DNA of 64,000 bases from Nitrospira sp. GTDB taxonomy: Bacteria > Nitrospirota > Nitrospiria > Nitrospirales > UBA8639. The position numbers were made by a program, and so were the translations under genes. The stretch covers positions 124,001 through 188,000 of the forward strand of contig WTGX01000004.1 of assembly GCA_011523385.1 (NCBI GenBank), written 5' to 3'. The notes beneath the pieces were generated by a model. That model did not search any database. It was not told where the DNA came from and saw nothing but the letters and a program-made list of their open reading frames with translations. This document shows, piece by piece, positions 2,263-34,921 of the stretch (within the stretch, counting starts at the first letter, position 1; the number at the start of each line of letters is the position of its first letter).

Positions 2263-2389
2263 ATTGATATGAAAATAGCCAAATCCACTCCAGATTTGTC
2301 ATTCCTGCGAAAGCAGGAATCCAGTGACTCTGTTTTTTCGGGCGAAGAATGAATAAAGACCCTGGATCCCCGATCAAGTCGGGAATGAC
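2263..2389 (+). repeat. Interspersed repeat, family A (dRS3-like hairpin with conserved leader)
   Basis: ATTGATATGAAAATAGCC ... GTCATTCCTGCGAAAGCAGGAATCCAGTG ... CTGGATCCCCGATCAAGTCGGGAATGAC; related copies at 27663 and 56220. Confidence 0.8.
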
Positions 2390-2496
2390 TGAACACATAC
2401 AAGGATGACAGGAGGTGGTGGTGAGAAATTGTCAGCGAATGAGTGCCCATTTACAATTCTCATCAGCAGGCTGTAGCGGGGATACAGGAAACCATC

Positions 2497-3096
2497 ATGA
2501 GTGCATCGACTGACCATAAAGCCAGAATGCAGCGGGTGAAAGCGTCGGTCGATCGCCGCATCGAGGCCGCGAAGGAAGAGCGCGGTATTCTGATCGTGTT
2601 CACCGGCGCAGGGAAGGGGAAAACCACCGCGGCTCTGGGCATGGTCATGCGTTGTATCGGACATGGCATGAAGGTAGCCATTGTGCAGTTCATCAAGGGG
2701 GCGATTGATACGGCCGAACAACGGGCTTTACGCGACTTTGGAGATCTGGTGACGTTTTTGCGTCTGGGGGAAGGATACACGTGGGAGACCCAGGATCGTG
2801 AACGTGATACGAAAGTGGCCCAGGAAGCCTGGGGAAAGGCCGCAGAGTTTCTGCGAAACCCCGATTATGCCATGGTTGTTCTCGATGAATTGAACATTGC
2901 CATGAAATATGAATACGTTGACGTGGCGGAGGTCTTGGCCGTCATTCGAAACAGGCCGGTGATGCAACACGTGGTGATCACCGGTCGGGGAGCGAAGCCG
3001 GAATTGCTGGAGGCCGCTGATCTCGTCTCTGAAATGAAAATGCTAAAACATCCCTTTCGAAAGGGAATCAAAGCCCAAAAAGGAATCGAATTTTAA
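2497..3096 (+). CDS. cobO: Cob(I)yrinic acid a,c-diamide adenosyltransferase (CobA/CobO type)
   Basis: P-loop GAGKGKTTAALG, VLDELNIAMKY, VVITGRGA; ATG at 2497 preferred over the longer ORF. Confidence 0.92.
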   Translation: MSASTDHKARMQRVKASVDRRIEAAKEERGILIVFTGAGKGKTTAALGMVMRCIGHGMKVAIVQFIKGAIDTAEQRALRDFGDLVTFLRLGEGYTWETQDRERDTKVAQEAWGKAAEFLRNPDYAMVVLDELNIAMKYEYVDVAEVLAVIRNRPVMQHVVITGRGAKPELLEAADLVSEMKMLKHPFRKGIKAQKGIEF

Positions 3097-3141
3097 CTTT
3101 TGCCGGCCGAGCGAACGCTCAGAACCAAAAAACAGTGTTCT

Positions 3142-3726
3142 ATGCGGATTAGTAAAGTCTATACCAGGTCAGGCGATGCCGGAAAAACCCGTTTGGCCGG
3201 CGGGCAGGAAGTGTGGAAGGACTCCTTGCGCGTGGAAGCCTATGGCACGGTCGATGAACTGAATTCCGTGATCGGCCTTGCCAGGGCGTTGAACGCCGAG
3301 CATTCCAAAGCGGTGGCAACCGGGGAGAAACTCGATGAGCCCTTGCGGTGGATTCAAAACAAATTGTTCGACGTCGGGGGGATCCTGGCTACGGCGCCGG
3401 GCGAGACCTTCAAGAATATGCCGGTGGTGACGGCCGACCACGTGGTCAGGCTGGAACGTCTGATTGACGCCTGCCAGGAAGATCTGGAGCCGTTGAAGGA
3501 GTTCATCCTGCCGGGAGGGGGAAAGGTGTCCGGGTTTTTGCATCAGGCCAGAACCATCTGCAGGCGCGCCGAACGTCTCTGTGTGAGCTTGTCTCGTGAG
3601 GAGGAGGTTCCCCCTGAACTCGTGCGGTTCTTGAATCGTTTGAGTGACGCCCTGTTCGTGTTGGCGCGCTGGACCGCGAAAACGCAGGGGGAAAACGAAT
3701 ACTTGTGGGAACGGGAAGGGAGTTGA
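3142..3726 (+). CDS. PduO-type ATP:cob(I)alamin adenosyltransferase
   Basis: MRISKVYTRSGDAGKTRLAGGQ ... AYGTVDELNSVIGLAR ... ILPGGGKVSGFLHQARTICRRAER. Confidence 0.93.
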   Translation: MRISKVYTRSGDAGKTRLAGGQEVWKDSLRVEAYGTVDELNSVIGLARALNAEHSKAVATGEKLDEPLRWIQNKLFDVGGILATAPGETFKNMPVVTADHVVRLERLIDACQEDLEPLKEFILPGGGKVSGFLHQARTICRRAERLCVSLSREEEVPPELVRFLNRLSDALFVLARWTAKTQGENEYLWEREGS

Positions 3727-14670: not shown

Positions 14671-15018
14671 TCAGAGAGATTAGGAATTAAGCCATCACTT
14701 GAAACGGTATTCCGGTGAGAATCGGCCGTTGGCTCATGGCGTCAATCCGTTGACTTAAACCAACAAGATTTAACACAACCCCTGTTTTTAATGCAAGGTC
14801 CATTGTCGTCTCTGCCCGGGGGCAGGGACATGACTTCTGGCACCAACAATGTGCCTTGGAAAACCCCGCGTCATGAGATGACGCGGCTACAAATATTGGG
14901 GGACGTTTTGACGGGGATTCCTGAATGCCGGTAAAGTAATTTTTGTCCGATAGCTGTCCTCTGTATGCCCGTTCTTTTGGGCACCCATTTGTCGCCCTGC
15001 GCCAAGGTGCTGGAGAGG

Positions 15019-15123
15019 TCATCCTGAACGAAGTGAAGGATCTGCTTTTCCAGGCGTTCGGTTGTTGAGCGAGAGATTCCTCGCGAGGCCCTTCACTTCG
15101 TTCAGGGCAAGCTTCGGAATGAC
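15019..15123. repeat. Interspersed repeat, family B
   Basis: GTCATCCTGAACGAAGTGAAGGATCTGC...GAGATTCCTCGCGAGGCCCTTCACTTCGTTCAGGGCAAGCTTCGGAATGAC; related copy at ~32265-32372. Confidence 0.8.
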
Positions 15124-15204
15124 AAAACTGGGCCTGGTGTGGAAACTTCTGGGTTGTCAGCAGAGTCATGCGTTATTCACGATTTTTGAGATGAGGTTGT
15201 AAGA

Positions 15205-32075: not shown

Positions 32076-32126
32076 CCGGAAAGGCCCGTTGTTTGAAATG
32101 ACGATTCAGGAACGAGCCACGCTCAC

Positions 32127-32185
32127 GTCGTTCTCTTCACGGACGAATAAAAAACCCCCGGATCCCCGCTAAAAACTGCGGGGAT
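32127..32185 (+). repeat. 59-bp direct repeat (left copy) flanking OMP paralog 2
   Basis: GTCGTTCTCTTCACGGACGAATAAAAAACCCCCGGATCCCCGCTAAAAACTGCGGGGAT; ~57/59 identical to 33724-33782. Confidence 0.9.
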
Positions 32186-32425
32186 TGTAAATGTTCACTA
32201 ATTCGTTGACAATTTCCGTCGATGGCTTGAGGGGTCACCATCCGTACGAGCACGCGCCAGTGGTCATCCTGGGCGAAGCGAACGGATCTGCTGTTCCAGA
32301 CGTTCGGCGGCTGAAACGACGAGATTCCTCGCTAGGCCCTTCACTCCGTTCAGGGCAAGCTTCGGAATGACCATTCTGGTGTGATTAGTCTCTCCATTCT
32401 GTCAACGAATGAGTGAACACATACA
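32186..32425. mobile_element. MITE-like non-autonomous element (240 bp)
   Basis: TIRs TGTAAATGTTCACTAATTCGTTGACA / TGTCAACGAATGAGTGAACACATACA (23/26), GGGAT direct repeats at both ends, uninterrupted empty site at 33778-33783; no ORF. Confidence 0.82.
32265..32372. repeat. Interspersed repeat, family B (inside the MITE-like element)
   Basis: GTCATCCTGGGCGAAGCGAACGGATCTGC...GAGATTCCTCGCTAGGCCCTTCACTCCGTTCAGGGCAAGCTTCGGAATGAC. Confidence 0.8.
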
Positions 32426-32512
32426 GGGATGACAAAGAAAGGCACAGAACATAATCCTGCTATCCGGGAACTCGACCCGGCGGTCTTATACGTCCCGATT
32501 AAGTAAAACTTA

Positions 32513-32606: not shown

Positions 32607-33560
32607 ATGAAAAAATTCTTACTCGTGCTGGTGGTCATGGGGTTGATTCTTTCATCCGGTCCGGTGTGGGCCAAGGACGGATTATACCTGGGGATGGATA
32701 TAGGCGTGGCCGTGGCCCCGGACATGGACGTGCAGACCGGGGGATTTGATGATTGGTCACCCGATGGGAAGGGCACACGATGCGACGTTACCCTTAACCC
32801 AGAGCGAGTGCAGGGGGGAGACTGTGAAGATGATCCGAGAGCCTGGGGTCCGGCGAATGAGTCTTTTGATGGCGGCTCGGGCATCCTGGCGGGATTGGCC
32901 GTGGGGTATCGCCTGGGTGGCTTCAGGGTCGAGGGTGAATATTTCTATCGCGGTGCCCGGTATGACAGTACGGCGACCCCCATTTTTGCTGGTGGGTGGA
33001 ATCCAAACAACCAACCGGAATATGGCCGTGGTGATGACAGCGCTCCCAATGTCGAAGATGCCGTGGATGACCTGTTGTCGCACAACTTCTTTGCCAACTT
33101 GTATTACGATTACCGCTCGGACTCGAAGTTTACCCCGTATGCGGGCTTTGGCATCGGGCTCGCTCAGGTCTCGGTCGCGTACCGGACACGTTGGCAGCGA
33201 AGCACGAACCCAGATAACATCACGGTCTTCGACACCACGGGTTCCGAAGGCGCTGCTGGGAGGGCATTGAACGAAAAGCTCGCCGGGTCCGTGACGCATG
33301 ACCGGGCCAGAATGTCGGATACGCTTTTCGGGTATCAGTTGTTGGCTGGCGTGGATTATCAGGTCAGCGAGCCCCTCACGATCGGGCTCAAGTTCCGGTA
33401 CGCGATGTTCGGGGAATTCGAGGACGAGTCGGTATATACGAAACTCCGTGGGCATGCCCCGGTGGTCGGGAATCCCCCAGCAAGGCCTGCGACCTACTAT
33501 ATCAGCACGGATGACATTCAATTCTGGGGCGTGAGTCTGAACATGAAATATCAGTTCTGA
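32607..33560 (+). CDS. Outer-membrane beta-barrel protein, paralog 2
   Basis: Signal peptide MKKFLLVLVVMGLILSSGPVWAKDG; LLSHNFFANLYYDYRSDSKFTPYAGFG; C-terminal NMKYQF. Confidence 0.9.
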   Translation: MKKFLLVLVVMGLILSSGPVWAKDGLYLGMDIGVAVAPDMDVQTGGFDDWSPDGKGTRCDVTLNPERVQGGDCEDDPRAWGPANESFDGGSGILAGLAVGYRLGGFRVEGEYFYRGARYDSTATPIFAGGWNPNNQPEYGRGDDSAPNVEDAVDDLLSHNFFANLYYDYRSDSKFTPYAGFGIGLAQVSVAYRTRWQRSTNPDNITVFDTTGSEGAAGRALNEKLAGSVTHDRARMSDTLFGYQLLAGVDYQVSEPLTIGLKFRYAMFGEFEDESVYTKLRGHAPVVGNPPARPATYYISTDDIQFWGVSLNMKYQF

Positions 33561-33723: not shown

Positions 33724-33782
33724 GTCGTTCTCTTCACGGACGAATAAAAAAACCCTGGATCCCCGCTAAAAACTGCGGGGAT
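33724..33782 (+). repeat. 59-bp direct repeat (right copy)
   Basis: GTCGTTCTCTTCACGGACGAATAAAAAAACCCTGGATCCCCGCTAAAAACTGCGGGGAT. Confidence 0.9.
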
Positions 33783-33864
33783 GACAAAGAAAGGCACAGA
33801 ATATAACCCTGTTATCCGGGAACTCGACTCATCGGTCTCATAAGCACTGAACAAGTGCCGCTTA

Positions 33865-33892
33865 TTGACGACAAAACATCAAGCTATAAAAT
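33865..33892 (+). promoter_or_regulatory. Sigma70-type promoter of OMP paralog 3
   Basis: TTGACG...TATAAAAT. Confidence 0.6.
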
Positions 33893-33958
33893 TCGCTGCA
33901 TTGGAAAACAGTCAGGCATAAGGCATGCAGTGATGTTTATAAAAGGAGCGGTGACAAC

Positions 33959-34921
33959 ATGAAAAAAATCTTGATTGTGCTGATGGTCATGGGGTTGGTG
34001 ATCTCCTCTGGTCCGGTCTTGGCCAAGGACGGATTTTATATAGGAGGGGACTTGGGCATCGCGGTGGCCCCGGGAATGGACGTGGATGCCTGGGATAATG
34101 ATGTTTCAACTAGATGTGACGGCTTCATTAATAATGACGGGTCAGGTAATCACATGGTGCCACCGTTAGCCGGTGATTGCAATCAGTCGGCTAATAAAAA
34201 TGACGGATTCTGGACTCAGCAGTTTAATGGAGGTACCGGCATTTTGGCTGGAGCGTCTTTGGGGTATCGTATGGGGAGTTTCAGGGGCGAGGCGGAATAT
34301 TTCTATCGCGGTACGACCTATGATGACTTGGACAATACAATCCAATTCATAACACCGACTGGGACGGAAGAGTTTCAGGGTGGTAAAGTTGGACAAGAAC
34401 TCTCTGCCATAGAAGCCGGGGTGGATGACGTGCTGTCGCACAACTTCTTCGCCAATCTGTACTATGACTATCAGTCAGACTCCAAGTTTACGCCGTACGT
34501 GGGCGTTGGAGTTGGGTTTTCCCGGGTGTCGCTGGATTTCTTTAACCGATGGGGGAGGAATCCTGATGCCAGCAAAATCACGACGTTCAACGAAACTGAG
34601 GGTACTCAAGATCAGAAAGACTTGCTGCATGAACGACTCGCAGGCACAACCACCATCGGTAGGGCCAAGCTTTCGGATACGCTGTTCGGATATCAGGTGC
34701 TCGCGGGCGTGGACTATCAGGTCAGCGAGCCGGTGAGTATCGGGCTCAAGTTCCGGTGGGCGGATTTCGGCGAATTCGAGGATGGGCGAGAGTGGGATCA
34801 GCTTCGTACTCATGCCTCCGCGGTTGGACCGGAAGCAGGCAGCCCGCGGGTGCGGTACTCAGCGATGACGCAGGATATTCAATTCTGGGGCGTGAGCCTC
34901 AACATGAAGTATCAGTTCTGA
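33959..34921 (+). CDS. Outer-membrane beta-barrel protein, paralog 3
   Basis: Signal peptide MKKILIVLMVMGLVISSGPVLAKDG; strongly similar to 32607-33560; C-terminal NMKYQF. Confidence 0.9.
   Translation: MKKILIVLMVMGLVISSGPVLAKDGFYIGGDLGIAVAPGMDVDAWDNDVSTRCDGFINNDGSGNHMVPPLAGDCNQSANKNDGFWTQQFNGGTGILAGASLGYRMGSFRGEAEYFYRGTTYDDLDNTIQFITPTGTEEFQGGKVGQELSAIEAGVDDVLSHNFFANLYYDYQSDSKFTPYVGVGVGFSRVSLDFFNRWGRNPDASKITTFNETEGTQDQKDLLHERLAGTTTIGRAKLSDTLFGYQVLAGVDYQVSEPVSIGLKFRWADFGEFEDGREWDQLRTHASAVGPEAGSPRVRYSAMTQDIQFWGVSLNMKYQF

Follow-up and report, generated by a model that had tools for sequence, protein, structure and literature searches.

A MITE of an IS481-like insertion sequence in Nitrospira, inserted at the tag/stem boundary of a REP-like palindrome

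Insertion sequences that target REPs include ISPsy8 (IS3), ISPa11, ISPpu9, ISPpu10 (IS110) and ISRm22 (IS4); the families listed are IS3, IS110, IS4, IS256 and IS5, and IS481 is not among them (PMC1525189). An IS481-family element that inserts at a fixed REP point is described for a single genome, Pseudomonas fluorescens SBW25, in PMC11708052, which gives it ~1.3 kb, 49-bp inverted repeats and no true target-site duplication in the observed event. CGTC-tagged REPs have a CGTC or TGTC tag, a stem that nearly always starts with a paired AT, and a CCA tail; only fortuitous associations with transposase genes were found for them, and a dedicated transposase was reported to be lacking (Di Nocera et al. 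2013, PMC3733652).

Here we describe a 240-bp element in a 64,000-nucleotide stretch of a Nitrospira sp. genome (the window), which, judged from its sequence, is a MITE of an IS481-like insertion sequence. The original prediction, a 240-bp element with 26-bp TIRs matching at 23 of 26 positions and a duplicated GGGAT, proved exact to the base. The features of the element and its surroundings are as follows.

32186-32425, plus strand: non-autonomous mobile element (MITE), 240 bp, recognised by its TIRs, 5-bp target-site duplication and empty paralogue
32186-32211, plus strand: left 26-bp TIR TGTAAATGTTCACTAATTCGTTGACA, TGTAAATG type; 25/26 positions as in the IRL of the autonomous element C24:100377-101435
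32400-32425, minus strand: right 26-bp TIR, TGTATGTG type, reverse complement TGTATGTGTTCACTCATTCGTTGACA; 24/26 positions as in the IRR of the autonomous element
32181-32185, no strand: left target-site duplication GGGAT, from the sequence
32426-32430, no strand: right target-site duplication GGGAT, from the sequence
32263-32289, plus strand: interior REP-like unit 1 (GTCATCC...GGATC), also elsewhere in the genome without TIRs
32324-32372, minus strand: interior REP-like unit 2 (GGTCATTCC...GGAAT on the minus strand), facing unit 1, also elsewhere in the genome without TIRs
32158-32185, minus strand: stem part of the REP-like palindrome that the insertion interrupts, from the sequence
32431-32433, minus strand: tag of the interrupted REP-like unit, reading GTC on this strand, in the right flank GGGATGAC
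33755-33785, minus strand: intact REP-like unit GTCATCCCCGCAGTTTTTAGCGGGGATCCAG, the empty target upstream of the second OMP gene, from an exact pattern match
32607-33560, plus strand: first OMP-like gene, with the element in its upstream region, from the list of open reading frames (paralogue 33959-34921)

The right TIR faces the GTC tag of the target. The longest interior frame spans 60 codons, in line with the prediction of an interior free of open reading frames, and leaves no coding capacity for a transposase. The interior had also been said to contain a repeat of a "family B", and it does recur elsewhere in the genome without the TIRs. Like bacterial MITEs mobilised by related insertion sequences, the element is short and non-coding, carries IS-like TIRs and a target-site duplication, is multicopy, with the same interior at other sites, and has an autonomous partner with the same ends in its genome. 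Unlike them, its interior consists of two facing REP-like units and its target is itself a REP-like unit.

The empty counterpart of the site lies within the same window. When one GGGAT was removed, the flanks aligned without interruption to 33724-33992 (223 identical of 260 aligned bases), where a single GGGAT occupies 33778-33782. The similarity reaches far past the palindrome, through the leader and into the start of the OMP gene, which identifies a true paralogous empty site and not merely another copy of a short repeat; the intact unit there is one of 58 exact pattern matches in the genome (reversed control, 0). The region 33776-33800 had been called the pre-insertion allele: it is indeed an uninterrupted empty site, but a paralogous one and not an allele of the same site. 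With this paralogue at hand, duplication of the OMP region followed by insertion, the order originally proposed, is the simplest reading. In a congeneric genome (G004, locus L226), a similar palindrome upstream of the OMP gene carries no element and represents a near-orthologous empty site.

The prediction had called for a comparison of the site between strains; between species, the site did vary. The stretch downstream of ridA showed no such ends in 12 of the 13 other genomes of the genus, with sequence available there, and the thirteenth (G013) carries a different short element downstream of ridA, flanked on each side by ATCCT and preceded by GTC. At this G013 locus (L222, turned), positions 2998-3251 hold the ATCCT-duplicated short element together with a further pair of ends, showing that the stretch downstream of ridA was hit more than once in the genus. 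The window also retains, at 32079-32127, a 49-bp remnant of a ~300-aa gene whose remainder is gone here; most other members of the genus carry this gene between ridA and their OMP genes.

A full-length transposase between the same TIRs and with a 5-bp duplication, for which the prediction had suggested a search, is present at C24:100377-101435, outside the window and 55 kb upstream of the window element. This autonomous element of 1,059 bp has the same TIRs as the MITE and an ATTCC duplication, and encodes a 345-aa IS481-like DDE transposase with an integrase core (Pfam). Its best NCBIfam model is IS481 (NF033577; 197 bits, E = 3.7e-58), followed by IS3 (98 bits). The NF033577 cut-off of 224 bits is reached neither by this protein nor by six scored relatives (179-208 bits), and we therefore file the transposase as IS481-like and not as a member of the family. 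The best family match, the integrase core, the element length of ~1 kb, the TGT...ACA ends and the single ORF are shared with the IS481 family, from which the clade differs in scoring 16-45 bits below the cut-off and in its conserved REP target with a 5-bp duplication. An assignment to IS21, guessed from the look of the ends, was rejected (47.6 bits vs 197 for IS481). D173, D240 and E282 are conserved throughout the clade, are shared with three outgroup proteins, and are predicted to be the catalytic D, D and E of the DDE core.

The MITE and the autonomous element are homologous over 34 and 45 bp at their ends, with the last 34 bp of the MITE matching the IRL side of the autonomous element at 91%, and their interiors are unrelated beyond. 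This indicates that the MITE was built from the ends of an insertion sequence of this family. Its outer octamers and subterminal bases are ordered differently from those of the autonomous copy, which points to a relative, not this exact copy, as the direct parent. We infer that the IS481-like transposase of the same genome is the enzyme that most likely moves the MITE in trans. With a single intact transposase and numerous decayed ends in the genome, activity may have ended. A plasmid search with a clade member (E 1e-40) returned no match.

Taken together, our preferred reading, to which we assign a probability of about 0.92, is that the window element is a MITE of an IS481-like insertion sequence, moved in trans by the C24 transposase and inserted at the tag/stem boundary of a REP-like palindrome by a clade specific for CGTC-tagged REPs. 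By analogy with what is known of DDE transposases, the enzyme would bind and pair the two shared 26-bp TIRs, cut at their TGT/ACA edges, and insert the element where the unpaired tag (C/T)GTC meets the foot of the stem, the two joins being staggered by 5 bp. The stagger would duplicate the first five bases of the stem (ATYCC here); the duplication itself and the fixed insertion point are observed.

That the insertion point is not random had escaped the original prediction: insertion occurred where the tag of a REP-like palindrome meets its stem, and relatives in other phyla choose the same position. Among short elements with both ends recognisable, collected from this genome and two others of the genus (n = 31), GTCAT stands directly at one edge in 22, vs 0.4% at shifted positions, and none used the tail end of the palindrome. 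Among the Nitrospirales short elements (L231-L270 and those of the window's own genome), 17 have distinguishable ends, and in each of these GTC is faced by the TGTAKG-type end.

The same rule was seen in autonomous relatives from the GTDB genome set (50 elements with both ends recognisable, counted as insertions and not as independent lineages, several being copies within one genome, as in Flavobacterium sp. LPB0248). Their hosts are Nitrospirota, Proteobacteria (Coxiellaceae, Legionella, Bradyrhizobium and others), Chloroflexota (Dehalococcoidia) and Bacteroidota (Flavobacterium, Mucilaginibacter, Pedobacter and others), and their ends are related, mostly TGTAAA.GTT....TAATTCG.T.ACA. Ends were chosen by TIR identity and duplication, and the GTC motif was not used. 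GTCAY stands at the edge, with the boundary between GTC and AY, in 48 of the 50, vs ~1% at shifted positions and at most 3/50 at any other shift; an exact 5-bp duplication starts there in 42. A general preference for orientation relative to the tag was rejected, as the autonomous relatives are mixed (25 vs 20). As an outgroup control, other transposases of the same genome (L052-L054; 28-31% identity) showed no GTCAT flank, a weak control given that their ends are not fixed with certainty. The clade thus appears to be specific for CGTC-tagged REPs, inserting at GTC|ATNN(C/T) in nearly all relatives.

Reconstructed empty sites share one plan, in which the tag (C/T)GTC is followed by ATNN(C/T), a loop and the reverse complement of the ATNN(C/T) block:

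Mucilaginibacter: GTC-ATTGC-GAGGTACGAA-GCAAT
Flavobacterium: GTC-ATTTC-GACGAAGGA-GAAAT
Dehalococcoidia: GTC-ATTCC-CGCGTAGGCG-GGAAT
window: GTC-ATCCC-CGCAGTTTTTAGCG-GGGAT

In each host counted, insertion occurs where the tag and stem of an abundant palindromic repeat meet; this repeat has 58 copies in this genome, 195 in a Dehalococcoidia genome, 292 and 50 in two Mucilaginibacter, 61 in a Bradyrhizobium and 24 in a Flavobacterium (reversed controls 0 in all hosts); in the Coxiellaceae host, a matching repeat was not identified. The units of this genome and of the Dehalococcoidia genome end in ...ATCCAG and agree with the definition of CGTC-tagged REPs (PMC3733652), and the targets share the plan of those repeats, with a CGTC/TGTC tag, AT at the start of the stem, a loop and a CCA tail. 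What differs from that survey is that a transposon clade here uses CGTC REPs as its insertion site. A search for PF01797 (Y1/RAYT) gave no match in this genome, in the Nitrospirales relative G060 or in the Dehalococcoidia genome G062, and thus no resident RAYT was found that would explain the repeats in these three genomes with CGTC-type REPs. Fifteen Y1 genes were present in the other hosts; within 1.5 kb, GTCAT-type words were absent from 13 of them and occurred once each at the remaining two.

It is less certain what the transposase recognises. We give slightly less than even odds to recognition of a duplex word of 5 to 8 bp, GTCATYCC, with no role for the palindrome; GTCATTCC without a stem would then serve as a target, and REPs would be hit because they are rich in the word. 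This would agree with the short Nitrospirales elements, in whose targets the exact stem partner is kept in only 2 of 20, so that the stem is either not strictly required or has decayed, and with the NN positions, which differ between hosts while GTC and AT are fixed. Against it, the reverse complement of the duplicated 5 bp lies within 45 nt downstream in 30 of 41 reconstructed targets of the autonomous relatives (vs 1/41 reversed), although the stem sequences are host-specific. This count does not separate a duplex word from a hairpin, since the REPs of the hosts may supply most GTCAT words.

A further proposal, which we consider improbable, goes beyond the use of REPs as a target: the IS481-like clade would have aided the spread of CGTC REPs as their dedicated enzyme and not as a mere parasite, with MITEs capturing and carrying REP units. 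The clade would then recognise the tag/stem boundary, and the two facing REP-like units of the window MITE would be the REPs that are carried.

Returning to the MITE reading, the TIR pattern was found elsewhere, as the prediction had required. Three matches occurred within the window, two of which are the element's own ends (0 in 100 shuffles), and at least 36 in the 2.5-Mb genome (up to 3 mismatches; reversed control 0); a shorter TIR core gave 54 matches in the genome vs 1 reversed. Two copies share the interior, one at C10:33442-33657 with 91% of aligned bases identical and its own duplication ATCCC/ATCCC, the other at C18:69522-69766 with 97% of aligned bases identical and one end truncated. 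Full-length relatives of the MITE occur in other species at 71-76% (G008, G011 and others).

Several remnants were noted in passing. A copy of the interior repeat with 85% identity at window 15014-15131 (G000:C24:139014-139131) was detected through the interior but missed by the TIR search. Another site of the TIR family lies elsewhere in the window:

2376-2455, minus strand: two decayed ends that belong to this TIR family, matching at 18/26 and 21/26 positions

These ends adjoin a REP-like palindrome downstream of a TonB-dependent receptor-like gene (283-2256), which is followed by cobalamin genes and has a cobalamin riboswitch upstream (59-252; Rfam RF00174, 95.3 bits). In G008 (L252, 279-630), two short elements have nested ends, apparently because one inserted into the end of the other or recombined within it.

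The distribution of the pattern was followed in 60 genomes sampled from the genus outward; many of the genomes analysed here are metagenome assemblies. Judged by the closest loci, the genus is the one to which Nitrospira sp. bin75 and related metagenome genomes of Nitrospirales belong. The pattern was present in 12 of 14 genomes of the genus, with up to 143 sites, and in 0 of 46 outside it. The transposase, intact or broken, was found in several of the TIR-bearing genomes of the genus, often at contig ends.

These copies bear on the question of whether the 240 bp could be the decayed internal-deletion derivative of one full insertion sequence at this site and not a separately mobile MITE. In its favour, the similarity to IS ends extends over 34-45 bp, and solo, decayed ends are numerous in the genome. 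Deletion in place is, however, contradicted by the recurrence of the same TIR-to-TIR interior at C18 and at C10, where the flanking 5-bp duplication is perfect but of another sequence; given also the diverged full-length relatives in other species and the clean empty paralogue, we judge it very unlikely. We find it scarcely credible that the locus is a REP cluster (a REPIN-like array) whose repeat units merely give the appearance of TIRs and a duplication: the interior and flanks are largely REP-like units, but the ends are TIRs common to a transposase-bearing element and not palindromic REP units, the TIR edges coincide exactly with the duplication and the empty site, and the 26-bp ends are absent from the 46 genomes outside the genus. 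That the GTC-plus-stem flank is extra sequence carried along with the insertion sequence, as PMC11708052 argues for the four bases beside the SBW25 element, is hardly tenable in view of the Flavobacterium copies within one genome, whose differing flank words go with matching duplications (ATTTC, ATCCT, ATTCC, GCTCC), of the mixed orientation relative to GTC (25 vs 20), and of the empty site in the window.

REP-targeting insertion sequences are thus already known, including one different IS481 element in Pseudomonas. As in those of PMC1525189, all copies of which sit at one point of the host REP, the point of insertion is fixed here, in other families and hosts. The SBW25 element resembles the present clade in its IS481-type transposase and fixed REP insertion point, and the available part of that report (PMC11708052) describes no MITE, unlike what we find here. 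In the open literature searched, no paper linked IS481 MITEs to REPs or described these repeat words in this way; as far as that search shows, the new elements are a distinct IS481-like clade that keeps a single conserved target rule in different phyla, the connection of this clade with CGTC REPs, and the MITEs that it would support, as read from genome sequences.

Some of the short repeats observed in the genus are explained by this MITE family. More broadly, CGTC-tagged REPs occur widely among bacteria, and their defining survey did not settle whether a transposase acts on them, or which one; the present clade, with insertions at the tag/stem boundary of such REPs in at least four phyla, supplies a concrete candidate enzyme. 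The clade also offers a natural case of a DDE transposase whose conserved target lies in mostly intergenic repeats, and such an intergenic target may explain the persistence of the element and its crossing of phyla.
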